64,000 nucleotides of DNA from Siderastrea radians (Eukaryota > Cnidaria > Anthozoa > Scleractinia > Rhizangiidae): contig OZ024898.1 in the NCBI GenBank assembly GCA_964017195.1, forward strand, positions 13,384,557 to 13,448,556. The letters are read 5' to 3'. A program made the position numbers and the translations under genes. The notes under the pieces are model-generated. The model saw only the letters and a program-made list of their open reading frames with translations. It ran no database searches and was not told the origin of the DNA. This document shows positions 27,190-61,282 of the stretch, piece by piece (within the stretch, counting starts at the first letter, position 1; each line of letters opens with the position of its first letter).

Positions 27190-30100
27190 ATGTTGGCAGA
27201 TGGCGACCGCGTGGATTCGTCGGTTTCACAAGATGTAGCGCCAACACAAGCAAGTCAAGCAAGTGGCACATCCAGCGCTGTTCCTGCTTATATTCCACAA
27301 GTAATTCTGCACAATTTCCTGCTGCCTAGTCCAATGACCTGCCGTGGAGATGTGGCTGGTAACTGGGATTTTTTCAAGCAGCAGTGGAACGATTACGAGA
27401 TAGCAACAGGCCTCGATAAGCGGGATGAATCGATTTGCCTAGCTACTCTACGTTCAGCAATGGGCCGCGATTGTCTGCAAATTTTCCTCAATTTGAACCT
27501 TTCGGTGGAAGACAGGAAGAAAGTCGACAAGTGTTTAGAAGCCTTAGAGCGTTATTTCAAGCCTACGAGAAATGTTGTGTACAAAGGATATGTTTTCAAC
27601 ACGTGCGTGCAGCAAAGCGATGAATCTGTGCAAAGTTAGGTCACAAGAGTGAGAAAATTGGCCGGGTCCTGCGAGTACGGCGAGACGGATGATTTTATAA
27701 GAGACAGGCTTGTTATCGGTTTAAAGGACAATGGAGACAAAGTCAGGTTGCTGAGGGAAAAGAAGCTCGACCTACAGAAAGCCATCCAAAGGTGCACGTC
27801 TAGCGAAGTCGCATCGCAGCAAATGAAGAAAATTCAAGGCGTGGAAAGTAAACAGACAGAAGAAGTTAAGAAGCTTGGTGAGAAGAAGAAAACGGCAAGA
27901 AAGCCTCGCCCGAAGAAAGAAGCAGAAAAACAGGCGAAATCTGGTGATAAATCGAAGAAACCTATTTCAAGCGACAAGTGCAGATACTGTGGCCGTCAAC
28001 AACGTCATGTAAGAAGAACAGAGTGTCCGGCTTTCGGTCAAACGTGCAGCAATTGTCAAAAGAAGGGTCATTTCACCTCTGTGTGTTATGCCTCCAAGAA
28101 AGTACACCAGTTAGAAGACAGCCCTGTGTCAAGTTCTGATGAGAGCTGTTTGAGAGTGGAAACTGTGTCCTTGGTGCAAACAAAAGCAAAGCAGTGGTTT
28201 GCTGATATCAAGTTCTTCAAGTCAGCACAAGAAAACTTCACAACAGCTTTGGCATGTCAATTGGACACTGGAGCTACATGCAATGTGATAAGCTTGGATG
28301 ACCTTTCAGCTATCACACAGCTAGAAGAGCCACCCTTGAACGAATCCTCTGTTAAGCTGAAGCTTTTTGGCAGCTCAACAATGAAACCCATAGGGGAATG
28401 TAGTCTGCAAATCAAGTACAATGGTACAAGACAGAATCTTCAGTTTCAAGTTGTTAAAGATAAGTGCAAGCCTCTCCTGTCTGCTGAAACTTGTAAGAAG
28501 TTGCAGCTTATCAAATTAAACACTGACATCACCAACTCTGTGCACCAAGTAAATGACAGTTCTGTCCAAGACTCCCTGTCAAAGGATGAGGTGATGAACA
28601 AGTACCACGATGTTTTCGGTGGCTTGAGGCATATTGGAGATGCCAAAATTTTGATTGACAAGAGTGTTACACTAGTCCAACATTCACCTCGCCGTGTGCC
28701 AGTAGCCTTACAAAAGTATGTAAAAAAGAAGATCAGAGAGTTAGAAGAGAAAGGTATCATCGCTAAAGCCGTGGAGCCCTCAGAGTGGATCAGCAGTATG
28801 GTAGTGGTCGCTAAACCCTCCAAGATTCGGATTTGTCTGGATCCAAAGGATCTGAACCAGGCTGTTCAGCGTCCCAAGTTCCAAATGCCAACACTAGAGG
28901 AACTTTTGCCCGAACTGACCAAAGCTCGAATTTTCAGCTCGTTTGATGCAAAAGATGGTTTCTATCAAGTCAGCCTAGATGAAGAGAGCAGCAAGCTAAC
29001 TACATTCTGGACTCCCCTGGGAAGATAACGGTACCTCAGAATGCCCTTTGGAATCAGTTTGGCACCCGAAGTGTTTGAAAGCAAGCTGCAAGAGTGTCTT
29101 GCCGATCTTCCTGGTGTGAAAGTCATCAGAGATGATATCCTTGTGGTCGGATATGGTGAGACTGACTCAGAAGCGCTAATCTATCATGATCAGAATGTCA
29201 TACAGCTACTCGAAAGAGCAAGACAGGTGAATCTAAGGCTTAACAAGTCCAAAGTCAAGCTTCGCCAAGCGGAAGTCAAGTTCATGGGCCATGTGATTTC
29301 CAAAGGTGGACTGAAACCTGATCCGGATAAGGTTACAGCCATTAAGAACATGCCCAAGCCTGAGTCTAATTCTGAGGTACTTACCTTGCTGGGTTTTGTC
29401 AATTACCTCTCAAAGTTCTTACCCAAGCTTTCAGAAGTGTCTGCACCTTTAAGAGAACTGACAACAGAACATGCTGAATTTCCATGGGCGTCACAACATG
29501 ACGAAGCCTTTGCCACCATACAACAGCTGGTTATTCAGCATCCTGTCTTAAAGTTCTACAACATTGCAGAAGATGTCACAATTCAGACAGATGCCAGTGA
29601 CAAGGGTCTAGGAGCCGTCCTCCTTCAGAATGGCCAGCCAGTAGCATTCGCATCAAGAACTCTCTCGAAGACAGAACAAAGATATGCCACTATTGAAAAG
29701 GAGTGCCTAGCAATTGTGCTCGGTTGTGAAAGGTTCAACCAGTACCTGGCTCGCAGAGAGAAGATTTTGGTGCAAACAGATCACAAGCTCCTTGAATCAA
29801 TATTCAAGAAGTCACTGCTAGCTGCACCTTGCCGACTCCAGAGAATGCTGCTCAGGCTTCAGTGTTACAACCTGTCAGTCAGTTGCAAACCAGGTTATGA
29901 GATGCTTTTAGCTGACCACTCGTCAGGAGCTGCTCAGCAAGAAATCACAAAGCCAGAAGATTTATTTCAAGTGTTTTCCGTTGAGTTAGAGAACACTAAT
30001 CCTATGCAAGCATTGAAGTTGTCGCCAGAAAGACTGGAGCAGTTACAACGCTGTACAGGACAAGATGCAGCTTTGCAAACCCTGAAGACGACAATCCTGT

Positions 30101-31331
30101 CCGGATGGCCTACATAGAAAGAGCAGGTGCCCATCAACATCAGAGAATTCTGGAACTATCGAGAAGAGCTTTCAGTACACAATGGCGTCCTGTTCAAAGG
30201 CATGAGAGTCATCATACCCCAAGTCATGCGACCTGAAGTGATGTCCAAGATACATGCCAGCCATTTAGGCGTAGAAGGTTGTCTTCACAAAGCTCGAGAC
30301 ACAGTGTTCTGGCCAAACATGAATGGTGAAGTGCGTGACCATATCAGCCAGTGTTATCAGCCATTTGCAGTGAATTTCAGGCCAAGAATCCAAAAGAGCC
30401 TATGCAAAGTCACCAAATTCCAGAGCATCCCTGGAGTAGAGTTGCCACTGACCAGTTCAAGCTTCATGGAAAGGAGTATATTGTGCTCGTGGACTTCTAC
30501 TCAGATTTCATTGAAGTCAAAGATTTGCACGAGAACACCTCAACGACTGTGATTGAGTTTCTTAAAGAGCAGTTCAGCAGATACAGCATTCCAGACACGC
30601 TAGCGACAGACAATGGTCCTCAGTTCACAAGTCAAGAATTTTGACAGTTCTCGCAAGATTGGGAGTTCCTCCATGTCTCGTCCTCCCCACATCATCACAA
30701 ATCAAACGGAAAAGTGGAGTCTGCTGTGAAAGTGGCCAAGGAGTTGCTAAAGAAAGCCCTCAGAGATGACAAGGATCCTTGGTTAGCAATGCTAGATCAG
30801 CGAAACACACCCACTGAGTCACTCGTATCACATCCAGCCCAGAGATTGATGTCTCGGTGCACCAAAACGTTTCCACCAACAGCTACTAACCTGTTGCACC
30901 CCAGAGTTCCTGAGAATGTCGGTGAAAAGTTGAAGCTGAAAAAGCAGAAAGCTAAGTGGTATCATGACCGATCTGCCCGCTCCTTACCTGAGATAGACAT
31001 AGGACAAGAAGTCAGAGTTGCGCCCTTGCAGAGAAATGAAACCTGGACACAGGGAACCTGCGTTGACAAGCTGTCGGACAGATCCTATATGGTGAAAATG
31101 GATGTAAGTAACCAACTCCTCCGTAGAAACCGAGAGTTCCTGAAGCCAGCTGTGAAACCAGCAGTTCCTTCCGAGCCAGTGGAAGTTGATAAGAGCCAGC
31201 CCGTGAATAACAACACAGAGCCAACAGTTCCTGAAGGCAAACAGTTGACCCCAGCACCACCTCCACCAGCCGTGAAGACAAGAACCAGAGTGATCAAACC
31301 TCCCTCGAGGTTCAGTGACTTTGTGAGCTAG
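27190..31331 (+). pseudogene. Ty3-type gag-pol polyprotein, five disruptions
   Basis: Gag starts MLADGDRVDSSVSQD and includes a capsid-like region (NWDFFKQQWNDYEIATG). A zinc knuckle (CRYCGRQQ...CSNCQKKGHFTSVC) and a protease (CQLDTGATCNVIS) follow. The RT has IRICLDPKDLNQAV, SSFDAKDGFYQV and VIRDDILVVG; arginine before the DD pair at 29131-29136 is odd. The RNase H has TIQTDASDKGLGAVL and KECLAIVLGCERF. The integrase has LHKARDTVFWPNM, WSRVATDQFKLHGKEY, LATDNGPQFTS and SNGKVESAVK, which supply the D, D and E. Defects are a TAG at 27637, TAA at 29026, TAG at 30115, frameshift near 30350 and TGA at 30642. Apart from the frameshift the reading frame is preserved. Confidence 0.92.
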
Positions 31332-31634: not shown

Positions 31635-32659
31635 TGAACCTGTTAAGATTACCACTGAATTGTGAAACTTGAATTGTTAAATCAGTGTTGTTGTTCAGTT
31701 GGAAACGGAAAAGTTCATGTAAAGACAGGAATGCTTTAGTACAGCAGTGCTGTCAATGGGTAGTCCTCCTTTTTTCAAAACAAGTACACACATACAGTGA
31801 TATCAGTTTGTTGTTTCTGCACGTTTCCCCATTTACAGCAAGAGGTAGTCATTACTTACCACGAATTTGTAGAAGATAAAAGGTACTCGATATTTGTGTT
31901 ACAGCATGACTACTGTAACCAGAGTCACATACAAAAATTAAAACCAATCACATTGTTTTGATGGCACAGATGCAAAGAACTTCATCATTATGTCACTGAG
32001 TTGTAATGTTGTACCAAGCAGTTGGATTGGCTGGGGTAAATCAAAGCTGGAATTCGTTATTTTTGCTGAGTGGTTTTGCATGCATGTTCAGTGATAAGTA
32101 TTTGTTAGATTACATCAACTAAACAAAGGATAGAAACAGAACTTGACAGTGAAATAGAAAATGGTAACATGCAGTGACTGTAAAGTCTGAAAATGAATAG
32201 CCACAGAAAATGAAGTCTACAATACATAACATGTTTGCCTGCAAATAGAGTTTTTATGTCTTTTCTCTGATTATTTGTTGTTTAATGATTTACGTGAAGC
32301 GGGGGATTGTGGGGAGGACTTATTGGGCATTGCTGTCACCCCCCTCTATTGTCTATATGTTGGTCACCTGATCGCACGAACCAGGTGCTTGTCATTCGTC
32401 TCGAGACAGCCGCGGATCAAGACGTGTTTTTGTCACAACGTGGTAAGTTCAGTTCCTTCGTGTTTATTTCCCCCTTTTTACTCGGTATTAGCCTATTCGA
32501 GTCTCCTGTTTCTGGTTTATTTGGTATTTTTTCCTCGAGGTTTATTTTAATTGTCGGCCTGGGTCGTTTCTCGCTTCGCATTCCTCACTTACATTCTATT
32601 GTTAACCTTTGTTGTTGTTTCCACGTGGTCGGTTACTTGTGACTTTATTGTTATTTGCG
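31635..32659. other. No gene recognised; leader of the SGNH-bearing retroelement from about 32300
   Basis: 31635-32300 shows nothing I can support. From about 32300 the sequence becomes GC-richer and runs without a boundary into the SGNH hydrolase frame, so it is probably that element's leader or repeat. Confidence 0.35.
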
Positions 32660-33153
32660 ATGGCTCTTTCTCCTCCCACAGTCCTTGTTTTTGGTCATTC
32701 TTTTGTTAGGAGGCTTCGTGATGACCTTCGGTTGAGTTTTGATCCTCGGGCTGATGAGACGTTTAACCTCTCGGGTGATGCCATTGTTCACTTGTATGGC
32801 GTCGGCGGGCAGACCGTGCGAAGATTGCACCAACGAGGAGACCTTGATGTTGTTTCTTCGATTTCTCCCGCGATTGTAATTCTCGAGATGGGCACAAACA
32901 ACCTGTCTGGACTTCGGCCAGAGGTCGTAGGATAGGAAATCGAGGAGTTGGTCTCTTTGTTGCTTAAGTCCTATTCTGTTCGAGTAATCGGTGTGTGCGA
33001 GGTGATATCTCATGTTAGGGCGCCGTTTTTTAACGACGCTGCACTGGTGCTCAACCAGTATCTTCGCGGGGTTTTGGACCTTATTCCCAATGTCTTCTGC
33101 TGGCGTCATCGGGCTTTACGGATCCTTCATTTCACCCGTATTCATCTGACGGA
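32660..33153 (+). pseudogene. SGNH hydrolase of a YR-type retroelement, 5' part
   Basis: The frame starts MALSPPTVLVFGHSFVRRLR, with the GxS block I (FGHS, nucleophile serine). It then has YGVGGQTVRRL (block II glycine) and VILEMGTNNLSGLRPEVVG (block III GTN). SGNH esterases/hydrolases of this type are carried by Ngaro-type tyrosine-recombinase retroelements. A TAG lies in frame at about 32933-32935. A one-base loss near 33110 moves the frame so that GFTDPSFHPYSSDG continues in another register. The gene is cut at 33153/33154 by the CACTA element; the remaining codons are at 43762-43809. Confidence 0.75.
33151..33153. repeat. Target-site duplication of the CACTA element, left
   Basis: GGA here and at 43762-43764. 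A 3-bp duplication is the hallmark of CACTA/EnSpm insertion. Confidence 0.85.
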
Positions 33154-33840
33154 CACAGGAAAAAATCCCTAATTCCCAACCTTGGTAAAAAATTGTTTTC
33201 TTCTTGGTAAATCATCTAATTCCCAACAAAATCCCAAACTTGGTAAAATCGAGCATTCCCAAATTCATTTATTCTTGGGAATTTGATTTACCAAGATTTT
33301 TCCCAAGGAAAAGGGACATTGGTAAGTATTCTCTACCAAGAAAATACCAATTTATTTACCAACTTAAAAATGCCAACAGTTCACGGGAAACATCTGAATT
33401 CCCAATCTTGTTAAATTGTTATCTTGTTGGTAAATCATACAATTCCCAAGTTAGTTTAAAAGCTTGGTAAAATGATCATTCCCAATTTTATTTGGTCTTG
33501 GGAATCTCATATTACCAAGGTTTTTCCCAACAAAAAAGGAGGTTATTAGAAGTTACATTATACCAAGAAAATACCTACAACCAGGGAAACCAATAAAAAT
33601 ACCAATCTTAGCACAACTGGGAACGACCAATATTTCTCAGTCCTTGGTAATATGTGATTTAAATTACCATGGTTTTTCCAAGTAGGAACCATCTTGATTA
33701 TCCTTATGTTCCTACCAAGAAAATACCAAAAACTAGAGAAACTATCATTATTACCAACTTCAGTCTGTCTTGGGAACATTAAAATACCATATGGTATTTC
33801 CAAGATACATGATCCAAGCTGGTAGTTTTCATGTCATCAC
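33154..33840 (+). repeat. Left subterminal repeat array of the CACTA element
   Basis: Dense, alternating copies of TTCCCAA and TTGGTAA (and their complements), often as TTCCCAANNTTGGTAA, with poly-A/T spacers. In plant CACTA elements such arrays bind the accessory protein; here that role is inference. Confidence 0.8.
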
Positions 33841-34533
33841 TTGACCTAGATTTTTCTAGGTAGACATGTGTGTTGTTACATTTTGATTACCATTACCATT
33901 TCTTACAGGGTAACAACGAAAGAACATTCTAGCAGGATTTATTAATAGAATAAAATAAAGAAAGACTAATAAAGCAATATGAAACTAAAATATGAGTTTA
34001 ATTTCTGCTAGTTGACACTTAAACACAACTGTAGCTCTACAGACAAGCATATGCAGGGACTGTAGTTCCAACATGCAATTATTCTGTACTAACCTTTTTA
34101 CCAATGTCAATTTTCAGTGCTTTACAACGACTTGACAGATTGATTTATCATTACCAAATTAGTCTCCAAACTTGTGGGTATTACCCCTGGTATATGAGTA
34201 CACAAATTCCCTAGTACATATTTTTTGAACAAAGAAATCAAGTGTATGCTAACTTACACCAGGTTGCCTACTTAGGCATGCATTTCTTTGTAAAATGTGA
34301 AAGTGTTTTTTAAATTCATTTCTACAAGTTTTAGGCAGTTTAGTATACAACTTTGCAGTTTTACTTAATTCAATATGATAAATTTGTTTAATGAATGTTT
34401 TGTGTTGTAATGATAAGCACTGGAAAACTTAATACCCATTTAGCTGAAACAACTGAAAGTTTACAAAAGGTTAACGTTACCAACTCAATGTCCCTGCGTA
34501 TACAATGTACACTTTCCTAGAGACAGTACAAAC
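33841..34533. other. CACTA interior, no gene seen
   Basis: AT-rich, holding the 3' flank of the SAM-domain gene. No repeat or frame stands out. Confidence 0.5.
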
Positions 34534-37500
34534 TCATCGTACTGAAATACTATCCCTGTGTAAGCAGTAAAAATCGGCATCCTCTTTCAATACTACTCGT
34601 TTTTTAAAGAGTAGTTCTTTTGCAAGGATCATAATCAGCTCACTCTTGTCTTTTGCTTTAAAATGTCTGATTTTCAATTCCCGGCACAAAGGATTAAGAT
34701 GTTCTTCTTTCTTGATTTCTTTGGTGTACCCCTTTTTAAAGAAGGCTAACAGTATTGTCTCTGCCGTGCTCAGGGGGACTGTTGTTGCACCACCTAAAGT
34801 AAGTTTTTGAATCAGGTTAAACTTCGTTAAGCACTTAAGAAGAAAAATAAGCAAAAAAAACACAACGTTTCAACGTTGCCATGACATCATTTTCAAGTGA
34901 GAAAATAAATAAAGTCATTTGAATTTTATTTTCTCACTTGAAAATGGTATCATGGCGACATCGAAACGTTGTGTTATGTACATTTTGACAACTAAAGTGA
35001 ATATTTACAAAGTAGTGAAAGTTTGCAGTCTGGTAAATGTGGACAACTTGCAAAGCAACGACTGGCAAAACCGTAAAAAGAACTATTACAAGAATAAGAG
35101 TACTAATATTATTTTCATTATTTCAAAGTGACAAGATGGCCATGGGTTGTTTACACTAACTTAACAGTGATATTACCCAAAGTAATTAGTGGGTAAAAGT
35201 GGTTATAAGGGTAATGGTAGCCTAAGGATGAAAAGCAAAATATAGTAACGTTTTAAATAATTTTTCTAGATTACCAGGTAACTGAGGTTCATCCTCAAAG
35301 GCATCAGAATTACTATCATCTGTGACCTCTGAGGTCACATTATCATGCTCAGAACTCCTCTTTCCCTTTCCACAGGAGCCATTTGTTTCGCTTTGTGAAG
35401 CCTCAAAGGAATGGTCACCATCACTGCCCTCTTCTCCACAAATGTTTTTCTCTCCAGCCTTTTCATCACTGTCATCAGTGGAGCTGGTTTCCTGTGCACA
35501 CACCAAACAAATAACAAACTTTGAATGCCAGTATGGTCTAAAATAAATAATATATTTTTCAACTGGAGAAATTTTTGAAGAGCATTTTAAAATGAGAGTT
35601 TATGATGACAGCTGCAAACAACACTCTGATATCCTCAGGGTCAAGTTTAAAACTGTGAAATGGCATGAGTGGTATTTGTCATTTTAAGTCATAAGCTATT
35701 GAAATGTTCACTGTCTTGACTTACCCCTGCATCAGCATAGCTGTAGCCTTCCCGCACCATTCTCCTTCTTTCATCTAGAATTGCTCTTATGTGTCGCCTG
35801 AGTTCCTCTACGATAAAATAAGACAAGAAGTTTGAATAAAACAAATGCCACACCAAAGCTTCAAACCAAATTTTGCTTCGTCTAAAGACTGAAATTTGGA
35901 ATAAGGAATTAAAATTTCTGAATTATTACAGAAGTAGTGCTCTTAAGTGTCTACAGCAGGCCTGGATAGGTGCTATATAAAAAATTAATGTTCTTATTAT
36001 TCTAATTATTATTCACGTCAGTTTTTGTTTTGGAGGGGAATGCTTGCCCTTTTTTTGCATAGAAAATTCTTGACGGTTTACCATAATGAAATCCTTACCT
36101 TCATCATAGCCAATTTCAGGTTTTAAGAGGTCTCTGCAACTTTGTACAAGTTCCTCAAATTGCCTTTTGGCAACTGCATTGCCTCTGATGATAGGGATTT
36201 TATTTCCTGGAAACATGCAAACAGTTTTACGGTGGACCTGCCTCCTTCTGCAAACAAGAAAGTAGTATAACGTCTTAACATCTTCTAGGCTGGCTTTTAT
36301 CACCTTAACAGACTTAAAGCAAGCCGCTGAGTGTTAAATCTTTATCAAACATTGTTTTTTTAACAAACAAAAACAAACAAACAAAACTATTAGAATTACT
36401 AGCTGCAGCTCACTTACTGAACTTAAACTACTACTGTGGTATATTGATCCTTGTATGAAGGATTTTGAATGCACTACACTGTAGTAAACTATCATGCAAG
36501 GTATAGATCCTTTTGTTAAGCCTAGGACGGGATAATTATGTTTCTGCTTGCACTGACCATGGTGTGTAACTGCTGTTGCACAGGTGACATGATAACTTAA
36601 AAGTTGGTCGTGAATAATCCAATTTGCCGTTATTTTTTTGGTGGTTTTTTTGCAGTCGCATCACCTGTATGGAGGTTGCTACATGACTTTCCCCACATGC
36701 TGGTGATACGACAAGTGCAAGCACAAAAGAGCTGATGTAGCCATAGCTTTAAGTACATGTATGTCATGAAAAATTAAATAGGCTTTAATTAGTACCTTCG
36801 AAGTAAGTCATCCTTTTGTTGTGGCGACAGGTCTAGGGCTTTCTTTGATCTCACTTTAGAAACTTTTGGGACTTTAATTTCCTTACAGTTGCCTTAAAGA
36901 AAAAATGCTATTTTACTTCTGCTCATTCTTCTTATTCTTACCTTCGCTCGCCAACCCTACAAAATGATATTTATGAGCTTAGGCCATAGGTTTACATGAG
37001 ATGGTAATTTTCTGTAAAATGAGAATGATAAACTAAGATTGTTTTCAAAAACTGTGATCAAACTAGATTTGACATTAACCATATATCTGAAAAAATATGA
37101 TCACTCTTCTGAGTACAAATGGCACACACAACATGACAAAGATATTTAATTTTTGACAAAGTGAACTTTTAATCGTTTACAACCTCAGTGATGACTTACC
37201 GACCAAATCTGCAATCTTCCTTTTCAGTAATTTCTGATCTCCAACCGTTCGCACCTCACAGGCGCCAAGTTCGCCCTCTGATAGCCCCTCTTTAAGGCAC
37301 ATTCCGTCTATTTTCTGCTCTAAAGGAAATGTCCGTGAAATAAATTTAAATTTTCATCTATGCATTCAAAGTTATAACTAAGTAACACTTACTTAGATAG
37401 CTTACCTTTAAAACCACGTGTGAAGGCTTTTAACCCTTGGCTTTCGAGCCACTGCACTACATCGTCTGTATTCCATTCTAAGAGCAAAAGGGTAAATTAC

Positions 37501-37784
37501 TTTAAAAGCTTACATAAATAAAGTTAAAAGTAAAAAAGTTCATGCTCTTTTGGGTAAATGGCTTTGGACATTTGACATGTAAGAAAGTGAGCTTAATGTT
37601 ATAACAGAACTTCTTCGCTCGACCCGACAGTTGTTTGAGAAACTAACTCGTAACCGCTCGATTACAAAGAGGCTAGATGTTGTTAAAACAAATCATCTAA
37701 CAGAATCATACCTTCGACACCTTTTTCAGAATTTGTGCTAGAAGAAGAGGAGCTGGCTAAAGGTGTTGTACTTTTAGACGCCAT
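34534..37784 (-). CDS. SAM-domain protein of the CACTA element, eight exons
   Basis: Exons on the minus strand: 37784-37712, 37477-37406, 37319-37200, 36892-36796, 36247-36099, 35817-35725 (start refined to 35807), 35491-35275 and 34793-34534. With the refined sixth exon the coding length is 1071 nt (356 residues). All introns are GT-AG and all phases agree. Residues 1-24 are Ser/Thr-rich (MASKSTTPLASSSSSSTNSE). Residues about 25-88 form a SAM domain (EWNTDDVVQWLESQGL, then GFKEQKIDGMCLKEGL), a protein- or nucleic-acid-interaction fold. A basic linker and KRQFEELVQSCRDLL come next, then a helical stretch EELRRHIRAILDERRRM, an acidic Ser-rich segment, and a C-terminal lysine-rich domain (LLAFFKKGYTKEIKKEE). 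There are no catalytic motifs. I infer an accessory factor, possibly binding subterminal repeats or the transposase. Confidence 0.85.
34861..34973. repeat. Palindromic hairpin in intron 7 of the SAM gene
   Basis: Left arm 34861-34908 (CACAACGTTTCAACGTTGCC...) and right arm 34925-34973 are inverted copies around a loop of about 15 bp. It looks like a tiny foldback element lodged in the intron, just upstream of the exon 8 acceptor on the coding strand. Confidence 0.7.
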
Positions 37785-38059
37785 GTTCGACAAAATGAGA
37801 ATCAAAATGAGCGCGAACGCCGCGAAGGAAAGGGCGCGTTTACATCCTTTTTCGTCATTGGTCAATTTTTGCTGTGGCGCGAATTCGCAAGACCAATCAG
37901 AGCCATCGTTAAATCGTAGTTTTGGCGCTTAGTCGAAAGCGCAGCGCGACCGAAAGAATCTCTCTGATCAAGGATATCTACTGTAATTTATCTTATCATA
38001 CAGGAACAGCGTACACGCTAAAAATTCAAGACAGGCAATTGCTAAAACTATTTTCTCAC
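37785..38059 (-). promoter_or_regulatory. Candidate internal promoter for the short SAM isoform
   Basis: Between the two alternative first exons are an inverted CCAAT (ATTGGTCAA, about 37857), a plus-strand CCAATCAG at 37893-37900, and an E2F-like TTTTGGCGC at about 37920. Together they would suit transcription starting upstream of 37784. No TATA box is evident. Confidence 0.4.
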
Positions 38060-38552
38060 CTTCAATAAGCCATCCACCCCAACTTTCCACGTCGTCGTCT
38101 GAATCGCTTACCATCTCAGTGTCGTATCCACCACTCCAATCACCCACACACAGGAAAATGTCGTCATCTGTTTGCAAAGTACTAAGATTTTCAATTTCAG
38201 TTGGATTTTCTCTACCACGGCGAATAAAAAATCTACACTTTTCATGTAAAACACTGGAAATTTCAGTAAGGTCGCCTCTTAATTTGTGTAGTTCGTCCAC
38301 GATAAATATGCAACTTGATTCTTCGAAGTGTTCCAAAGCTCTACCGATAATAATTTCTTTAAATTGTGAGAATGGAATTGGCCAGGTATCAAAGTTCACT
38401 TGCCAACCGTCAAAATGAATGCAAAGAAGTTCCAACTTTACCCACACTCGCATTTTCAAAGCACAATGCAAAGTTCTGTGTTCTGTGTCAAAGGCCGAAA
38501 ACATTGATGGAGCAGGGCTGGGAACAAAACTAGGTCCAGACCCCTCGAGCAT
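38060..38552 (-). CDS. Alternative first exon of the SAM-domain gene
   Basis: This is open from ATG at 38552 (MLEGSGPSFVPSPAPSMFSA) to a donor GAAG|gtgaga at 38060. The exon has 493 nt, 164 codons plus one base. That leaves the same phase as the short first exon, so it splices in frame to the exon at 37477 (GAA-TGG). It would give a protein of about 496 residues. Visible features are a hydrophobic-aromatic half (HFDGWQVNFDTWPIPFSQFK), DELHKLRGDLTEISSVL, and an acidic tail (SDSDDDVESWGGW). I recognise no family. The alternative is a separate one-exon protein reading on to a stop at 37968. Confidence 0.6.
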
Positions 38553-38665
38553 TCGGTTGTGGACAATGTGACATGTGGACGGCTCTTCGCTGGGGAGAAG
38601 AAAATGAGTTGAAACGAAGCTTTCGCCGTTAATTGATTGATTTCAGAAACGTTTGTTTGTTTTCT
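38553..38665. promoter_or_regulatory. Shared divergent promoter region
   Basis: Only about 113 bp separate the start codons of the long SAM isoform (minus) and the transposase (plus). Both genes must therefore be expressed from one short bidirectional region, or the transcripts overlap. An in-frame upstream ATG for the transposase exists at 38633, just before an acceptor-like TTTCAG. Confidence 0.5.
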
Positions 38666-41600
38666 ATGCCTTCGACATCCTCATGTCGGTGTGATGCTAG
38701 AGGTTATCTACATGCGCATTGCTATTGCTCCGTTTATAACTGTAATGGTAAAGCCGTGTCTCGTTCCACCTACCAACACCATCGGAAAGCAGCTCAAGAA
38801 TCGCAAATTTTAAGCAGCAGCAATTTGCAAGAAACAAGGGAAGAAAATGGCAGTGAAGGGGCATCTAGAACAGCAGAATGTAATTCAGAAGCAGGTAAAC
38901 TTTTTATTTAATACCGCCTTTCCCTCGTATACACAAAAGCCGACAGAAAAGATGAAACATAAGCTTATATTATAAAATCTTAAGTGTCAAATGTATTTAG
39001 CACTAAATAAATAAACAAATATTGCAAACAGAACAGAAACTTGTTAAAACAAGTATATTTTTATAGTATATTTATTGATTACCCACAGAACATTATAAGC
39101 TAAAATAAAAGTTAAGGTTAATATTTTCAGCTTTTTGCCATACACTACCGACTAGATCCTAAATTAAAATTCTGCCAACCAGGCTCATTTAAATCCTGGT
39201 TGGTAGGCATTTTAGCAGTAGTTTTCCCAACTGAGTTAGGTACCACCCTAGATTAATCAAACTGGAGATTCTAAAATTTTCTTCAAAGTCGAATACCAAA
39301 GTTTTCTCAAATTTTAAAAAACTCAGTATATACCAAGTTCATCCCAAATTTGAGATTTTGATATTTGTTGCTTAGTACTTTTTACCATTGCAATGCTAAG
39401 GAAATACCAGATTTGTGACATTGCTTTTGCACGTGATCCCTGATTATCAAAATTTGACCAAGCAAAAAATTGCATAAGCAACAACAAAAACAAATCGCCA
39501 ATTATAATGATGATGATGATGATGATGATGATTAAAAACTCTAATTATAACTTTCAATAAAATTTTTACTTTCCTCCTAGATGAAAATGGCATTGAGCAG
39601 AGTTTTGAAGAAACAGAATCCTGTGACAGTGATAACACCAATTCAAGTGAAGGTTTTCCTAACATCGAACTCAGGCAGACAAAAGGAACACAGACAGATG
39701 AAGAAACATGGGAGCAGAAGATTGTTGCAGCCATTTTAAATGCTTTACCTTTAAAACACCAACAAGGAGATTCAATTAAATCCTTTGAGGACTGGCTCAA
39801 ATGGGCCAAAGATTTTGTTATTACTGACCAAAAAATGAAAGATATGTGGCCAACCTCTTGGACAGAGACTGAAGATATTTTAAGAAAGGTTGGATATGAA
39901 TCTCCAAAGCAATATTTCATTTGCATGAGTGAAGAACATCCAAGGGAATGGGACATAATGGAGTCCTCCTCAGAGAAGTGCCGACACTGTGGAGAACCTG
40001 GTGATATAAGCTATTATTATATGGGGCTTTCTTACAAGATTAAAAGATGGTATAGGAATCCCGAGAAATGTAGTGATATGCTTGATCACTGGAGGGAAAG
40101 AGACCACTGGTTTTACAATTTTGAAAGGGGACAAACTCAAGGTTGGCCCATCAAAAAAGAACTATGGGATGGTACACGTTTCTCTCAGTATTCTTGGTTT
40201 TTTGACAAGGATGTGGAGTCCTTGTTACCAGCCACTTGTCCACACTGCCAGAAATTTGGGAAAATTACTGTTATTTCACCTTTACATATCACTTCCCTTG
40301 ATGTTCTTGAAAATGACACTGTGAACATTGTTTGTCATAGCTGTAGAAACGTGTTCAACCATGAACCTAAATATACCAGTGGAGATCCCAGAAATATTGT
40401 GTACATTGCACACTGGGATGGGTTTAGCCCCTTTGGTACATCTGGTGGCCACAGTACAGGTGTCATTGATGTAAAGATTGGGAACATGTGCAAGAACAAA
40501 CGGAATCATGCTGACCAAGTATTTGTGGTAGGATTTGTACCTTGCTTCAAACTACCTGATGAAACTCCTGAGTTTCTTGACCCTTTCCTTAAGCCATTAG
40601 TTAAGGAAATAGTAGATGGTTTCATTGATGGTATTGAAGTAGAATACTGTTCTGACTTTCCTGAATTTGGGATACAGAAAGGACCAGCAGTTATACGCCA
40701 CCTCATCATTCTTTGGACAGGGGACCACCCAGGACAGTGCGAGGTAACAAAAGTGAAACGTACAGGAAAGAAAGCATGTCGTCGGTGTCATATTTGCGGT
40801 ACTCAATTAGAGCCTGGATCACCTCATTATTATTATGGGAACTGTAGATATCATGCAAGACACAAGTGGCCTAGTAGAACTATGGAGGAATCAATCCCAC
40901 AAATGAAGATTGCAGATGAAGAAGTGGGAGCAGCATGGAACAGGGTTTCAAGGGACAGTGGATTCACTGGTTTAAGCCAACTTGCTATTCTTTATGACCT
41001 TTATGGATTTGATGTACTATTTGACACTCCTATTGATCTGATGCATAACTTACCAATGAATCCAGTCAAGAAGCAGTTGCGACGCTTACTCGACACTGGA
41101 AATGTAAACAAAGACCTCGTTGAATCAAGACTCTCAAGCTTTCCGTGGACTCCAGAAATGAAGGCCTCTCGGTACCCTACTGGAATAACATCGCGACTTG
41201 GATACTGGAAAGCAGAAGACTATCAAAAATTCTGCTTTCCAGCCTCTGAAGTTATCTTATATGACCAAATGCCTGCTAATGAATTTCAGTGCTGGAAACT
41301 ACTAGTGCAGATGGTTACAATGGTTTTCAACTGCTGTCGCACCCATGGGTGGACCTACAGGGACATTGAACTGTTCAGTAAATTAGCTTGGCGCCACAAT
41401 ATCATGGTTGAGGAGGTGTTTGGCTTAGAAGCTTGTGTCGTTACAGAGCACAATTTGATTCATGTTGCTGATGATATTTACCGTTTTTCATCACCAGATA
41501 ATTATTGGGTTTTTGACCTAGAAAGAGCTGTTAAAAGGTATGTTAACCAATCAACAAATCGTCGCAACATTGAGAAGACATACAGTGACAACGAAACGAG

Positions 41601-42564
41601 GAGAGAAGTTCTTCAGAATTTAGACATTTCAAGAAAAGGAAAAAATGAACCTGTTTTAACACAGAAGGAAACTGATTCAGCCATCAAGTTAAGACAGGTT
41701 TCCTCATTAAATAAAGGTAACTATTTGATTGCATATGCACATGCACATGAGAGTTTGACTGATATTCAAGGTGGAATACTTGTTGGGAGCGAAAACAAAG
41801 GATTTCAAGAGATTTCTGAATCCCAACGACATCAAATATTCCAAGACATCAGAGATCGTGGAGCAGATATTGAATATTGTACTCTCCCTTCTGCCACTAA
41901 AAGATGTAAAAGCTTTCTAAAGCCTGGAAAAGAACCTGGTGTTCCTCACATGGTGTACAGAAAAGGAGAAAATGCAATGCTTTTAGTCAACAATGAGGAA
42001 AGAACAGGCAAAATAAGTGACATTCATTCAGTAATGATTAAGAATGGAGATGGCATGGAAAGTGTCCATTTGTTGGTGGAAGTTCAGTTATATCATCATG
42101 TCACAGATGACAATGGTCACCCAAAATACCATCCTGGAAGTCAAAGCCAGTGTCTTTGTTTGTCCCAAACTATTCAGATGGTGAATACCATTGATGTTTT
42201 GAGAAAGGTGATATTGTTTCCAGACCAATCAATTCCTCATCAAGTTGTCTTGATAGACTTTGACATGCCTTCTTTGCCATCTCAAAAGCAATGTGTGGTT
42301 GTTCCATTTTACCCAAAGAAAAATGACATGGTATTGATTTTAGGTGAAAATGATGTTCAGTGGATAGCCAAAATTATCTCTGTCCAACAGGATGATATGA
42401 GAGTTGGGCTTCACTTCTTAAAGGAACATCCAAGATGGCCTGGAGGAAAAAAGTTTATCAGGGAAAGTTCTACAATGCATAGTGTACATTGGGACAGCAT
42501 CATAAAGGAACTTGAGGGCAGCTGGATGGCAAATGGAATATGGGAATTAAAGGACACATTGTGA
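38666..42564 (+). CDS. CACTA/EnSpm transposase, two exons, 1070 residues
   Basis: Exon 1 (38666-38894) and exon 2 (39581-42564) join in phase with GT-AG borders to a single 3213-nt frame. Residues about 7-40 hold a Cys/His cluster (CRCDARGYLHAHCYCSVYNC, then SRSTYQHHRK), likely zinc-binding. Further CxxC pairs follow (CRHCGEPGD, CPHCQKFGK). The Tnp2-like core shows HWDGFSPFGTSGGH, ILWTGDHPGQCEVTKV with CRRCHICG, and DLMHNLPMNPVKKQLRRLLD. It then has EHNLIHVADDIYRF and NYWVFDLERAVKRYV, the order seen in CACTA transposases with a DUF4218-like tail. No stop or frameshift interrupts it. It should bind element ends, cut and reinsert. The upstream ATG at 38633 would add 11 residues. Confidence 0.9.
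39150..39435 (+). repeat. Copy of the right subterminal repeat inside the transposase intron
   Basis: The intron contains TACCAAGTTCATCCCAAATT, TTTTTACCATTGCAATGC and TTGCTTTTGCACGTGATCCC. This is the same string of landmarks as at about 43460-43600 near the right end. It is a likely extra binding site array within the gene. Confidence 0.65.
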
Positions 42565-42829
42565 ATTCCAGGTTACCGGAAGCTTGAGTCAGGGGACGTG
42601 AGCTTTAATCCCCTGCAAAATTTAACTTGAGATAGACAAAATGAAATACTCAATATTTCACAAAAAACATGCTTTATTATATCAAATATGGAATTATTAA
42701 TCAGCAAAGGTACAAACACTGAACATTCTTGTATTCTTTCATTGTGCTACTAATGCATCTGCTGATTGGCAAGACATGAAAAGGTTGTTGACAAGCAAGT
42801 CATTTCACAATAATATATGTATGTTTATT
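42565..42829. other. 3' flank of the transposase gene
   Basis: Short non-coding stretch between the stop codon and the right subterminal array. Confidence 0.5.
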
Positions 42830-43761
42830 GATGCAAATCTTTGCATACCAAGGTTATCCCAAATTTGGGGTTTTAATGCTTGGTTCTTAGCATTTCTAGC
42901 AGTAGATTTACCAACAGATTCCCATTGAGTTAGTCACTTATCAAGTTAAATCAATTTGGGATTTCTGACATTTTTTCAACATCAACATTACCAAGCATTT
43001 CCCACTTTAAAACCAAATTTGGGATTTTGATTTAGCACTTGATTTGTGTTTACCAAGATTTAACCAATCCAATGAAATATTAAAATTTGGAAGTTAAATT
43101 TGAACTCTGCATCCCAAGTTCATCCCAAGTTTGGGATTTTAATCTTTGTTGCTAACCACTTTAACAGTAGTTTGCCCAACATTTTCCCAACGGAATTAGT
43201 AATTACCCAAGATTTCATTAAACTGGGAATTTGGATGTTTTTACAACAACTCCAACACCATTATTTTACCAATTTAAAACTCTGCATACCACGTTCATCC
43301 CAAGTTTGGGATTTAAATCCTTGCTGCTAAGCATTTTAGCATTAGTTTTCCAAAATTTTCCCAAAATTTTCCCAACTGAATTAGTTACGTCTAAAGATTT
43401 AATCAAACTGGAACTTTGGAACTTTTTAACAACACCAATACCAAAGTTTTTCCAAATTAAAACTTGGCATACCAAGTTCATCCCAAATTTGGGATTTTGG
43501 CATTTTTTGCTCAGTACTTTTTACCAATACATTGCCAATGAAATACCAAATTTGGGACTTTGCTTTTGCACTTGATCCCTGTTTACCAAGAATTAACCAA
43601 TTTACAAAAACAATAAACTTGGGAAGATACTTTTACCAATATGTATATGTGTGATTCTCAGTTGTAGTTTTTCCCAGTGTTGGTATGTTATTGGTAAATT
43701 ATTGGTAATCTTAAGATACCATGTGTTTACCAATCTTGGGAATTGGGGATTTTTTCCTGTG
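42830..43761 (-). repeat. Right subterminal repeat array of the CACTA element
   Basis: Three to four imperfect copies of a unit of roughly 190-200 bp. Each copy contains TTCATCCCAARTTTGGGATT, TTTTAGCANTAGTTT, TTTTCCCAACTGAATTAG and TTACCAATTTAAAACT-like blocks. The array ends with the inverted terminus. Confidence 0.8.
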
Positions 43762-43809
43762 GGAGTCCACATGAATTCGTTAAGACAGTACTGTTTGTAT
43801 CACAGTTAG
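43762..43809 (+). pseudogene. SGNH hydrolase, 3' part after the CACTA insertion
   Basis: GGAGTCCACATG continues the DG-VHMN motif begun at 33145-33153 (Y-S-S-D-G, then V-H-M-N-S), then LRQYCLYHS and a stop. The histidine of the DxxH catalytic pair is here, and the aspartate is on the far side of the transposon. Confidence 0.75.
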
Positions 43810-44778
43810 CGGGGCGCCATGTTGAAAGCTTTACGTATGCTTCCTTCCTTCCCACCCTCACTGTAAGACTTCTTGCTTTACTCCTGTTTGTTTGTTATGC
43901 TGCATGCTTGATATAGTTGTTATTAGTTTTTTATGTTACTGGCTTATATAATAACACCAACGGACTTAATTTCCTTGGTTGGCTTGTTTTGTTTCTTATT
44001 ATTTTGACGAGGGCACGTTCCTGAGTTCATATTTTTATGTTTTTTCCTGAGAGAGGTTCCTCAGTTTGTATTTTTCTGAGACATTTTATTGTTATGAGGC
44101 ATGTTCCTCAGTTTATATTTTTATGAGACATGCTCCTCAGTTGTATTGTGAGGCAGGTCCCTCAGCTTATAGTTTTTATTGAGACATGCTCCTCAGTTCT
44201 GTTGTTATGAGGCATGTTACTCAGTTTATATTTTTATGAGACCTGTTCCTCAGTTTTATTGTTGCGAGGCACGTTCCTCAGTTTATAATTTTTGAGACAT
44301 GCTCCTCAGTTCTGATGTTGTGAGGCATGTTACTCAGTTTATATTTTTATGAGATCTGTTCCTCAGTTATTGTTGTAAGGCATGTTCCTCTTGTTAAGTT
44401 TTTGTTGAGGCACACACGGGACTTGCTGCTGCGGCAACCATGTGTTAGCCATGCTTGCCCAGCCTCGTAGCTTGAGTTTTTGTTCTTTGGGATTGTTCAT
44501 GTTTACCATTTGTTTATTTGTTTGGGTAGTGTATGTTTATTATCCCGAGGCTTTGTTCCTTGGGATATTGTATTGTCTCTCAGGTCATGTCTTGGTTGTG
44601 AATTATTTTTTCTCCTTCTGAGTGACACACAGAATTTACTACGGTGGTAACTATTTGTTAGCCATGCTTGTCCTGCCTTGTTTGTCTATTTTATTGTGAG
44701 CACCTACTGTATTTGCATGTGCTCTGTTACATGTAATCCTCAGTCCGGATACCTGCTTTTGTTTATGTTCAGTTTCAG
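43810..44778 (+). repeat. Imperfect tandem repeats between hydrolase and Gag
   Basis: From about 44040 to 44400 a unit of roughly 55-65 bp recurs (GAGGCATGTTCCTCAGTTTA, TATTTTTATGAGACMTG). From about 44405 to 44690 a longer unit repeats twice (TTGTTAGCCATGCTTGYCC at about 44443 and 44657). It is probably the non-coding repeat or regulatory part of the retroelement. Confidence 0.6.
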
Positions 44779-45841: not shown

Positions 45842-48096
45842 TAACTTTTCGTCAATCAGTTACCATGGTAACATAACTTATAATAAAAGTGTTCGCTATA
45901 AATTGAATGAAACTTCTGAGAAAACATGGGGAAGGAAACACTAACCCCTTGCCAGCGTATACTAATGTTTGGATAACCTGTGCACATTGAAACTATTACG
46001 CTACAAACATGAAATGTACTGAGGTATAGAAGAGGAAACTGGTCATTGTACAAATCAAACCTATTATGTAACAAACACGCTCAATGAAGAAAAATTAAAC
46101 TAGCCGTGAAATCTTGTGCCTTTCGTAACTTTAACAGGTGAAAATAAATAATAAATACAAGTAAAATTAATCGCTGGATTGTGCTGTCTTGTTCACATGT
46201 TACAGTACGATGCTAGTGAGAAAAAACTATGACACAAAAGAAGGATGTAATGCTCGCCTACTTTGCTATGATGATAGTGGAGAAACATAGGAAAAATCGT
46301 TCAATATTTGTCAATGTAGTCGCTCTGTACCGTGCGGGGTTACGGGGCTACCACGGTACGCTGCTATTACTTGTTGCTCTTACTGTGTGGGGTACGGCGC
46401 TACCACGCTACGCTGCTATTATTTCCTACGTCACTGTATAAGTCGATCGTTCCTTGTGGGGGTACAGGGCTACGACGGTACGCTGTTCCTTCATTACTTA
46501 ATTGATTGTAAATAATTTGTCATAAATTTCTAAAGTGGTTTTTAGAGATGTTCTGGATGAAATCGCAATACAAAGCTACTATACCCATACGAAATAGATT
46601 ACGTTCACGCAGTGCTGCTTCAGCGGCTAAAAATGATTGCAGTGAGCACAACGGAAAGGTTGCACAAACGCTTTTTTCATTGCGCTGCAGCAGTGACAAA
46701 AAATGAATGCATGAGTGCAGTCTTCTCAGCTTTTCTCCATATGTTAATTTGTTTGTACAACATTTGTCTTATCTTCTCAGCGTTTCTCCATACGTTAGCT
46801 CGTTTGTACAGTATTTGTCTTATCTTCTCAACGTTTCTCCGTACGTTAGTTCGTTTGTACAGGATTTGTTTTATCTTCTCAACGTTTCTCCATACGTTAG
46901 CTCGTTTGTACAGTACTTGTCTTATCTTCTCAACGTTTCTCCGTACGTTAGTTCGTTTGTACAGTGTTTGTCTTATCTTCTCAGCGTTTCTCCGTACGTT
47001 AGTTCGTTTGTACAGTGTTTGTCTTATCTTCTCAGCGTTTCTCCGTATGTTAGTTCATTTGTACAGTGTTTGTCTTATCGTTTCTCTGTACATTATAGTG
47101 ATGCACTGCTAATCTACCATAAAGCTTCATGTTGCTATTTTATAGTAGCTCTCTTGCAGCGTTCCAGCAGCTTTCAATCTCGCTTCTGCCTCACTCATGC
47201 AGTCATTTTTTGTCACTGCTGCAGCGCAATGAAAAAAGCGTTTGTGCAACCTTTCCGTTGTGCTCACTGCAGTCATTGATAGGCGCTAAAACAGCACTGC
47301 GTGAACGTAATCTGTTTCGTACGAGTATAGTAGCTTCAGTATTGCGATTTCATCCAGAACATCTCTAAAAACCACTTTAAGAATTTATGACAAAGTATTT
47401 ACAACCAATTAAGCAATGAAGGAACAGCGTACCGTCGTAGCCCTGTACCCCCACAAGGAACGATCGACTTATGCAGTGACGTAGGAAATAATAGCAGCGT
47501 AGTGTGGTAGCACCGTACCCCCACACAGTAAGTACAACAAGTTATAGCAGCGTACCGTGGTAGCCCCGTAACCCCACACGGTACAGAGCGACTACGTCGA
47601 CAAATATTGAACGACATGTCCTGTTCCTCCACTAGCATCATAGCAAAGTAGGCGAGCATTGCATCCTTCTTTTATCTCATAGTTTTTTTCTCATTAGCAT
47701 CGTACCGTATCCTGCGAAGAACAGAGCAGAATCCGGCGATTAATTTTGCTTGTATTTATTATTTATTTTCACCAGTTAAAGCTACAAAAGGCACAAGATT
47801 TCACAGCTAGTTTAATTTTTCTTCATTGAGCGTGTTTGTAACGTAAGTTTTGATTTTTATAATGACCAGTTTCCTCTTCTATACCTCAGTACATCTCCGT
47901 ACACTGATCATGTTTGTAGCGTAATAGTTTCAATGTGCACGTTATCCAAACGTTAGCATACATTGGCAAGGTGTTAGTGTTACCTTCCCCACGTTTTCTC
48001 AGAAGTTTCATTCAATTTATAGCGAACACTTTCATTATAAGTTATGTTACCATGGTAACTGAGTGACGAAAAGTTATAGAAATCACTGCATGCTTG
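45824..48096. mobile_element. Foldback element 3 (2.3 kb, long arms and tandem-repeat core)
   Basis: Left arm about 45824-46718 is repeated inverted at about 47191-48096, with scattered substitutions and small indels (about 5-10 per cent by eye). The centre (46717-47095) is a 51-bp tandem array. The arms contain imperfect repeats of GGGGTACGGNGCTACCACGG, giving local secondary structure. The outermost 18-19 bp of inverted match (CAAGCATGCAGTGATTTC) coincide with the Gag zinc-knuckle codons on the left, so the true left boundary is uncertain. I found no direct target duplication and no transposase. Confidence 0.8.
46717..47095 (+). repeat. 51-bp tandem repeat array (about 7 copies)
   Basis: The unit CTTATCTTCTCAACGTTTCT, then CCGTACGTTAGTTCGTTTGT and ACAGTRTTTGT, is 51 bp (17 codons) and recurs about seven times with few changes. 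Because 51 is divisible by three, two plus frames stay open and mimic repeat proteins of 166 and 190 residues. Confidence 0.85.
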
Positions 48097-55995: not shown

Positions 55996-56104
55996 GTAAA
56001 TGGCAAGGCATGCGGCCAATCACACCCTTCCCATAGTCACCCTGGGGGTGGTAGGGGGGTCTCTCCAGCGACAGGGGACTTCAGCTACATCCAGCTGACT
56101 CCCT

Positions 56105-57065
56105 ATGGCCTCTCCCCTCAACACAAATCTTTGGCTGGTAGAACTTACTGGCGATGAGGATCAAGCGTTCCTCTCTGATGGCATTTGCAATGGCTTTACG
56201 TTGGCTCCAGTAGATTGCAATTATGAACCAGCGCACCAGGGCAACTATAAATCAGCTACTTGTGCAGAGCAAAAATTGGCAGTTGAGGAAACTATCTTAG
56301 GTGCGATTGCAGAGGGCAACTACGTTATCACCGATGTTAAACCTCCTATTGTCAGTGCATTAGGAGCTATTCCTAAACCTGATTCCTCAGAAGTGCGCCT
56401 AATTCATGATAGCTCCCGTCCTGTTGGTCATGCTTTCAACGACTACATCGCTAGCCAATCCTTTAAGTTTCAAACTTTGGATGATGCGATAAAATTGCTA
56501 AGGCCAAATTATTTCATGGCAAAAATCGATCTGAGGCATGCATACAGATCAGTTCCCATTCACCAAAGCAACTATTCAGCAACAGGCTTGCAGTGGCAGT
56601 TTTCAGGGCAACCTAATCCACTTATTTCTTTGACACTCGGCTTCCTTTTGGTGCCAAAAGCTCACCTGAAACTTTTCACTGTCTGACGCAGTCCGTGCGG
56701 CGCATGATGGCCAGGCGCGGCTTCCAGACAGTTGTTGTCTACCTGGATGACTTTCTCGTCACGGGCAAGTCCAAGGAAGAATGTCAAGAAGCCTTCTCCG
56801 TACTTTTAAAGCTGCTCCAGGACCTGGGTTTCCAAATCAGCTGGCGCAAGGTCATTGGCCCCACACAGAAGCTTGTGTTCCTTGGAGTGGAATTGGATAC
56901 CCACCGCTGCGAAATGGCATTACCACGCAATAAACTGGCAGAACTCCATCAGGTTGATCTCCCGGTTCCTCACCAGGCGCAGGGCCAGCAAAAAACAACT
57001 CCAGCAACTTGCTGGCAAGCTTAATTGGGCCTGTCGCGTGGTCTATGGAGGGCGAACTTACCTTC
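56105..57065 (+). pseudogene. Reverse transcriptase of the YR retroelement
   Basis: It starts MASPLNTNLWLVELTGDEDQ. RT landmarks are PPIVSALGAIPKPDSSEVRL, IHDSSRP, YFMAKIDLRHAYRSVPIH and, after a frame change near 56680, VVVYLDDFLVTGKSKEE with the catalytic YLDD (56740-56751). FLGVELDT follows, and after another shift near 56950 KQLQQLAGKLNWACRVVYGG. This matches the DIRS/Ngaro RT type. Confidence 0.75.
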
Positions 57066-57079
57066 GGTGAATACTTGAT

Positions 57080-57640
57080 ATGATGAATTCCCTGGGGTCC
57101 TCCTCGGCAAAGAAGCGGCTCTCTCCAGAGTTTCATGAGGACATTAGGTGGTGTCATTCCTTCCTGACACATTTCAATGGCAAATGTGCCTTCCTCCATC
57201 AGCAGCCCACAACTGATGTGCAAACAGATGCGTGTCCACTAGCAGCAGGGGCCTTTTTCCGTGGGGACTGGCTGTACCACAACTTTGCAGTTGACTCCCC
57301 AGAGCTAGTACACCTTCACATAAATTACAAAGAAGTTGTTGCCCAAGTTTTCGCAGCATTTTGCTGGGCCCCTAGTTGGGCCAACCAACATGTCATTATT
57401 TACTGTGATAACAAAGCTGCTGTGCACATTATTAATAAAGGCTCAACTGCCCATCCTCTGGTTATGCATGCATTAAGGCAGTTATTTTGGTTATCTGCTA
57501 TTTACAATTTTAGATTCACAGCCAAGCATATTAAGGGTGAACTTAATGTTATTGCCGACGCAGTGTCGTGCCTTCACCAGCCTGTCAAGTGCTTGGCCTT
57601 TTATCAGCACCTATGTTCACTGGTGCCACAACCAGAAGTG
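57080..57640 (+). CDS. RNase H domain of the YR retroelement
   Basis: The frame is open and reads HEDIRWCHSFLTHFNGKCAF, TDVQTDACPLAAGAFFRGDW, INYKEVVAQVFAAFCWAPSW, VIIYCDNKAAVHIINKG and HIKGELNVIADAVSCL. These supply the D, E, D and D of an RNase H that removes template RNA. It is separated from the RT by a stop near 57070. Confidence 0.75.
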
Positions 57641-57716
57641 AACAGCATGCTGTTATCCCATCACATGCCTCTTAACAGCAGGAATCTTCTTTCTTGCAGA
57701 TTGTCTGGACCCTCAG

Positions 57717-61090: not shown

Positions 61091-61282
61091 AAAAAATGGC
61101 TGCTGGATTCGCTCCTTTCCCCACTCCCCCTTGGTGTTTTTTTGTATTTTGTTGTCATGGAGACCCAGATGGGTAATAAACCAATCATTTGCCGTCTTTT
61201 GCGCATTTTTTGACAGGTTATGAGAAGCACCATGAGGTCGGGATTTTTTGAGTTAGCGCGTGCGATCAATTTTCACTAAACA

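Follow-up and report, generated by a model that had tools for sequence, protein, structure and literature searches.

A stretch of 64,000 nucleotides of Siderastrea radians DNA (the window) was analysed, and positions 33154–43761 were found to hold an apparently intact 10.6-kb cut-and-paste transposon of the EnSpm/CACTA type, which includes two divergent genes, one for a transposase and one for a protein with a SAM domain. The favoured reading, to which a probability of roughly 0.55 is assigned, is that the element encodes a two-protein system of the EnSpm/CACTA type, in which the SAM protein would act at the arrays of subterminal repeats.

Termini, target site and subterminal repeats

The termini at 33154 and 43761 are exact (CACAGG..CCTGTG), i.e., of the CAC..GTG type, and the perfect GGA duplication reported in the first-pass annotation was recovered as an exact 3-bp match on both flanks (33151–33153 and 43762–43764). 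The left terminal inverted repeat (33154–33189, plus strand), which begins with CACAGGAAAAAATCCC..., matches the right one (43726–43761, minus strand) at 33 of 36 bases, or 33 of 37 if counted to base 37; the earlier figure of 34/37 had to be corrected by this recount. According to a binomial estimate, the chance expectation of pairs with at least 33/36 matches over the whole window is 3e-7. As a control, 2,000,000 random 37-mer pairs were drawn from the window, the best of which reached 33/37, since the window contains other inverted repeats: an exhaustive count gave 19 diagonals with at least 33/37 matches. Arms were 3–20 kb apart in four of these 19, one being this element, and the remaining three paired a stretch near 1040–1090 with 15773–16060. 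When the window was compared with itself, neither the element nor its flanks turned up a second time, and only tandem repeats within the right flank were seen, and the junction of the empty site was crossed by none of four reading frames of at least 100 residues.

The proposed subterminal TTCCCAA/TTGGTAA arrays proved to be real. The motif TTGGKAA was present 61 times in the whole window (mean of shuffled sequences, 28.9; largest of 100 shuffles, 44). The element ends contained 37 copies, 22 of them in the left array (33154–33790), in both orientations, and 15 in the right array (42900–43761); seven were located between the end arrays, still inside the element, and 17 in the 53.4 kb outside. 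For the ends, with a length of about 1.9 kb, 500 first-order Markov resamplings yielded a mean of 2.1 and a maximum of nine matches, far below the 37 present. Parts of the right subterminal block recur in intron 1 of the transposase gene (39187–39461, plus strand), where 132 nt are 86% identical to positions 43469–43600.

The transposase gene and the SAM gene

The prediction of a two-exon transposase of 1070 residues was confirmed, with exons at 38666–38894 and 39581–42564 on the plus strand, a GT-AG intron and no stop codons. Exon 2 holds D356, D458, C476xxC479, H700xxxH704 and E724 (numbering of the spliced protein), and the full D-D-C2C-H3H-E signature is thus present, with a spacing of 20 from H to E. 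An alignment of 16 rows, counting those with a residue at the respective position, showed D356 in 15/15, D458 in 16/16, C476 in 16/16, C479 in 14/16, and H700, H704 and E724 in 14/14 rows each. The Pfam family Transposase_21 (PF02992) matched with E = 6.9e-6 and 25.9 bits, the cut-off being 28.6; two relatives scored above this value (P0004, 29.0; P0008, 38.9) and two below (P0009, 25.0; P0014, 14.1). Extra CxxC pairs at residues 210, 296 and 328 could be parts of DNA-binding fingers. The nearest match, P0004, was 90% identical and its cluster stands for 110 member sequences, which may not be separate genomic copies, the table showing one contig.

Assignment of the second protein to the SAM-domain proteins was upheld by Pfam SAM_2 (E = 1.9e-9, 38 bits, cut-off 20.5) and also by SAM_1 (26.9 bits, cut-off 23). 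In profile comparisons, the closest SAM domains of known structure included those of liprin-beta-1, SHANK2/3 and SARM1 and, as weaker matches, PHC3, L3MBTL3 and SAMD1. The gene model of eight exons and 356 residues could be followed on the minus strand from 37784 to 34534 without stop codons and with seven GT-AG introns, but it was incomplete, as a second first exon had been missed. Exon 1 of the short form (37712–37784) comprises 24 codons plus one base, and a similar short start is found in P0003 (Exaiptasia isoform X2). The SAM domain is divided between exon 2 (37406–37477) and exon 3 (37200–37319); exon 4 (36796–36892) is followed by exon 5 (36099–36247) with a basic, conserved middle domain, exon 6 (35725–35807), exon 7 (35275–35491) with an acidic, serine-rich linker, and exon 8 (34534–34793) with the C-terminal domain and the stop codon. 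The charge is +7 in the middle domain and +6 in the C-terminal segment. By fold or sequence, BEN was considered for the middle domain and a Rho_N/SAP-like or winged-helix domain for the C-terminal one, neither with a clear-cut match. A hairpin with arms of 51 nt was noted inside the element at 34859–34975, and weak inverted pairs were seen around the SAM gene (I9, 27 nt, 70%; I22, 22 nt, 73%; I21 and I25, 75–76%).

The alternative first exon (38060–38552, minus strand) leads to a long form of 496 residues in total, with a splice phase identical to that of the short form and likewise a GT-AG intron. The splice junction of this isoform is supported by P0002 from the octocoral Paramuricea, which matches across it: 23 of 43 residues are identical over the tail of exon 38552–38060 and the start of exon 2. 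Between the divergent start codons of the long SAM form and of the transposase lie 113 bp (38553–38665), a putative promoter common to both genes.

Homologs and origin of the SAM gene

Three homologs of the SAM protein with 52–56% identity were obtained, two of them from the anthozoans Paramuricea and Exaiptasia, and the homologs span two anthozoan subclasses; an alignment-based protein search yielded none beyond these three. Five of the seven exon joints were without an indel at the joint when compared with the homologs; P0002 lacks joint 3, and in the neighbourhood of joint 6 P0001 is shorter by three residues and P0003 by one. P0001 consists of an uninterrupted frame of 302 residues on a contig of 1,211 bases and therefore probably represents a spliced transcript. 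In Exaiptasia, the transposase has a full-length homolog with 62% identity, LOC110235289, and the SAM protein one with 52–54%, LOC110235292. The two genes appear to adjoin each other, because their locus numbers are neighbouring and a contig of 408,752 bp is reported for each. Searches in viral contigs, a collection without animals, gave 112 pattern stretches for the SAM alignment and 15 for the transposase alignment, with no relatives among either, and no hits for the terminal sequence; bacterial and archaeal contigs, also without animals, gave 124 stretches for the transposase alignment, no relatives, and again none for the terminal sequence.

The SAM gene, which had been considered to be part of the element, is most likely element-borne, because it is located inside the termini, its joints read through in homologs but for small differences in length, the protein is conserved in three other sequences, and the pairing apparently recurs in Exaiptasia. 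Since SAM domains occur widely among animal genes and eight exons look host-like, it might instead be a captured host gene, a passenger that plays no part in transposition; this would be hardly probable, in view of homologs in two anthozoan subclasses, one apparently beside a homologous transposase, and of the similar divergence of both proteins from their Exaiptasia counterparts. Domesticated host genes or decaying copies, an explanation for the Exaiptasia pair and perhaps for the present one too, would agree with a single such pair among named records and with the lack of a further copy within the window, but the intact termini, target-site duplication, reading frames of both genes and catalytic residues make it quite improbable here, and the 110 members of the P0004 cluster, although perhaps not separate copies given the one contig in the table, would fit a multiplying family. 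Small insertions inside the element are suggested by the hairpin, and the SAM gene is flanked by the four weak inverted pairs; SAM exons and transposase could thus have come together by chance nesting of elements. This last explanation, already disfavoured, is very improbable, as none of the four pairs has matching 3-bp flanks and both genes apparently adjoin in Exaiptasia, too.

Comparison with known systems and possible function

The EnSpm/CACTA superfamily is taken here in the broad sense of PMC12730594; the element shows CAC..GTG termini, a 3-bp duplication and a D-D-C(2)C-H(3-4)H-E transposase. The CAC..GTG ends and 3-bp duplication are shared with the plant CACTA elements (maize En/Spm, Tam1, soybean Tgm; proteins TNPD/TNP2 and TNPA/TNP1), as are asymmetric subterminal repeats and a second protein, and the transposase resembles their Transposase_21 type with a score below the cut-off; unlike in plant CACTA elements proper, the terminal core is CACAG and not literally CACTA. 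Both En/Spm proteins are produced from one gene by alternatively spliced transcripts (PMC2613891), whereas the second gene described here is divergent, on the opposite strand and equipped with its own first exons. In the same paper, TNPA is described as binding the subterminal repeats and as required along with TNPD, and TNPA and TNP1 as having little similarity to each other (PMC2613891). Therefore, the fact that none of the five families which Pfam listed for the SAM protein at E values of up to 10 is a plant CACTA family bears on membership and not on working alike. The best explanation would be that the SAM protein works like plant TNPA, kinship being supported by none of the matches found.

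CACTA-related elements of animals and fungi (SmTRC1, other TRC elements, Repbase EnSpm) resemble the element in animal hosts, inverted repeats and splicing, and probably in a transposase of the Transposase_21 type. SmTRC1 is about 4.5 kb long, has CCC ends and a 2-bp duplication, and is reported to contain one frame of 1,683 bp for 560 residues, with alternatively spliced transcripts that hold frames for different proteins (PMC1636069); no SAM protein is mentioned in the abstract, the opening results or the Transposase_21 section of that paper.

The D-D-C2C-H-H-E type of transposase is shared with Transib/RAG. The H to E spacing of RAG1 is also 20, and ProtoRAG carries a second element-borne gene; its RAG2-like partner has kelch repeats, and the target-site duplication of Transib/RAG is 5 bp. 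The present element differs in its 3-bp duplication, in its Pfam match, below the cut-off, to Transposase_21 instead of RAG1, and in a partner with a SAM domain instead of kelch repeats. Harbinger/Nuwa, in which a transposase and a DNA-binding Myb/SANT partner form a two-protein DNA transposon (PMC12730594), is alike in design, but unlike in transposase superfamily and partner domain.

For the two-protein system the following steps may be envisaged. The SAM protein would bind the TTGGKAA arrays by its C-terminal domain, by the basic, conserved domain in its middle, or by both, and SAM-SAM contacts would link bound molecules along and between both element ends, coating or bridging the arrays. 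With the CACAGG termini brought side by side in this way, the transposase would cut and insert with a 3-bp stagger. The two SAM isoforms may also tune expression or activity, because array copies are present in transposase intron 1 as well and the long isoform, which has an additional acidic region, begins beside the start of the transposase. The same gene pair, which a sea anemone appears to have, suggests that two proteins may be needed for movement of such elements. A more far-reaching version can be offered only tentatively: the anthozoan EnSpm lineage might possess an obligatory two-protein machine, with a polymerising SAM protein carrying new kinds of DNA-binding domains, filaments on TTGGKAA which pair the ends, and two isoforms as a switch from assembly to repression and back; this would be a solution like that of TNPA, arisen independently in animals.

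SAM domains are general interaction modules, and those of liprin-beta-1, SHANK2/3 and SARM1 are among the nearest solved ones; the conserved SAM gene could thus encode a regulator, a chromatin tether or an anti-silencing factor, while the transposase alone would read the ends, perhaps with its own CxxC pairs as DNA-binding fingers. Regulation is suggested also by the two first exons of the SAM gene. This alternative is regarded as rather unlikely, since arrays of such density suggest that a protein reads them, a task which falls to the second protein in plant CACTA elements (PMC2613891); this argument is not decisive.

Among the open-access papers listed, no description of a CACTA/EnSpm element with a SAM-domain protein was found, although subscription journals or Repbase may hold one, and none of the pairing of ends in animal CACTA/EnSpm elements. 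With a conserved second gene containing a recognisable assembly domain, the question of end pairing becomes testable. Accessory genes of elements can be mistaken for host genes, as is illustrated by the Exaiptasia SAM homolog, which is annotated as an uncharacterized protein. If the two-protein reading is true, a two-component tool for gene delivery could possibly be obtained, and two-protein CACTA systems would have arisen with unrelated partners.

Termini and subterminal repeats

The element extends from position 33154 to 43761 (10,608 bp); its left end begins with CACAGGAAAAAATCCC... and the right end is the reverse complement, with 33 of 36 bases matching, and GGA is present at both flanks. 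The first-pass annotation had placed the termini correctly, while its match of 34/37 was slightly off, 33/37 being counted here. From a binomial estimate, about 3e-7 pairs with at least 33/36 matches would be expected among all pairs in the window. In a control, random pairs taken from the window also reached 33/37, because the window contains further inverted repeats: 19 diagonals were found at 33/37 or better, four of them with arms 3–20 kb apart; one of these four is the element itself, and the other three represent a single stretch near 1040–1090 paired with 15773–16060.

The heptamers TTCCCAA, TTGGGAA, TTGGTAA and TTACCAA are a single motif, TTGGKAA, in two orientations. Twenty-two copies are located in a left array (33154–33790) and 15 in a right array (42900–43761); 7 are found in the element between the arrays and 17 in the 53.4 kb outside the element. 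The whole window contains 61 copies, compared to a mean of 28.9 and a maximum of 44 in 100 shuffles; for the approximately 1.9 kb of the ends the values were 37 copies versus a mean of 2.1 and a maximum of 9 in 500 Markov resamplings. Partial repeats of the right array (132 nt, 86%) are also contained in intron 1 of the transposase gene, near the starts of both genes.

Transposase and SAM genes

The transposase is encoded by two exons (38666–38894 and 39581–42564), separated by a GT-AG intron of 686 bp; together they were translated into 1070 residues without a stop, in agreement with the uninterrupted protein reported earlier. A Pfam scan yielded Transposase_21 with E = 6.9e-6, slightly below the family cut-off, and of four relatives scanned, two were above this cut-off and two below. 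The element's own sequence and all 15 homologs found were aligned (16 sequences). D356 was conserved in 15 of the 15 rows having a residue, D458 and C476 in 16/16, C479 in 14/16, and H700, H704 and E724 in 14/14. Due to these conserved D, D, C-C, H-H and E residues, the element is of the EnSpm/CACTA type in a broad sense, with the core CACAG, not CACTA.

The SAM gene runs on the opposite strand from 37784 to 34534 and has, in its short form, eight exons encoding 356 residues, with all seven introns of the GT-AG type. Exons and introns were as previously annotated, but a second possible first exon (38552–38060) had been overlooked. At its end it has the splice phase of exon 1 and, spliced to exon 2, yields a long form of 496 residues. 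The tail of this exon together with the start of exon 2 shares 23 of 43 residues with P0002, a homolog from an octocoral, and therefore a relative possesses a counterpart of the long-form splice junction; the sea anemone homolog P0003, labelled isoform X2, has a short start containing serine, resembling exon 1. Homologs cover 67–72% of the long form; the first approximately 137 residues of the long exon fall outside the matched region and gave no match in a Pfam scan. Only 113 bp separate the start codons of the transposase and the long form, which suggests a putative shared two-way promoter.

The SAM protein matches SAM_2 (Pfam, residues 23–87, E = 1.9e-9). A conserved basic middle domain (residues about 110–195, net charge +7) comes next, then an acidic linker (−17) and finally a C-terminal domain that is likewise conserved (+6). 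The last intron of its gene contains a hairpin (34859–34975; arms of 51 nt, 90% complementary, loop of 15 nt), resembling a small foldback element nested there.

Neighbouring features in the window

A GDSL/SGNH-hydrolase-like frame (32606–32935; Pfam E 6.2e-5, below cut-off), possibly part of a retroelement, lies about 220 bp upstream of the element, and diverged direct repeats (43999–44404, about 77%) start about 240 bp past its right end. A Mutator-like transposase fragment (22381–23127; PF20700, E 2.6e-7) is followed at 23286 by a near match, with 2 mismatches, to the first 16 bases of the element terminus; chance alone would produce about one match of this quality in the window. Other features were a DDE_Tnp_1_7 transposase fragment (61280–62209; PF13843, E 2.6e-49), of the piggyBac type, a LINE-like endonuclease frame (7847–9535; PF03372, E 3e-12), and three long frames at 27640–31331, by eye an LTR retrotransposon, the first of which, the sole one scanned, matched reverse transcriptase with E 3.9e-6, below cut-off. 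By eye, frames at 56099–58700 resemble a retroelement of the tyrosine-recombinase (DIRS-like) type; two of them were scanned, and neither matched a Pfam family at E 0.01 or below. Inverted repeats were present at 45820–46717/47192–48100 (about 0.9 kb with 90% identity; direct repeats at 46721–47086 lie between the arms), at 12848–14227 (arms near 12848–13513 and 13542–14227) and at 1625–2889 (arms near 1625–1867 and 2644–2889).

Association of the SAM gene with the element and known systems

Protein searches yielded, among the matches listed, at least three homologs of the SAM protein with 52–56% identity: P0001 (56%), P0002 from the octocoral Paramuricea clavata, designated "uncharacterized transposon-derived" (55%), and P0003 from the sea anemone Exaiptasia diaphana (LOC110235292, 52%). 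A transposase homolog of Exaiptasia, P0009 (LOC110235289), is 62% identical across the full length. Both Exaiptasia genes are recorded on a contig of 408,752 bp, and from this same size, rather than a contig name, we take them to share one contig. The contig that encodes P0001 is 1,211 bases long and carries it as an open frame of 302 residues, as might be expected for a spliced transcript. Five of the seven exon joints of the SAM gene show no indel at the joint in the homologs; joint 3 is absent from P0002, and around joint 6 there are 3 residues fewer in P0001 and 1 fewer in P0003.

Against the association, no Paramuricea-named transposase was among the 15 transposase homologs found, and the more distant transposases P0014–P0018 (34–43%) have no known partner; thus, the pairing of transposase and SAM protein may be confined to one branch. 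That SAM homologs are missing elsewhere among the matches listed means little.

Among the papers listed in searches of an open-access library, none describes a SAM protein in a CACTA/EnSpm element. SmTRC1, an early animal relative, is reported to have one main frame, CCC at its ends, a duplication of 2 bp, and transcripts that are alternatively spliced to encode different proteins (PMC1636069). By analogy, we think that the element would work like plant CACTA elements, although these employ alternative splicing of one gene, whereas the element of Siderastrea radians possesses a second, divergent gene that has first exons of its own.
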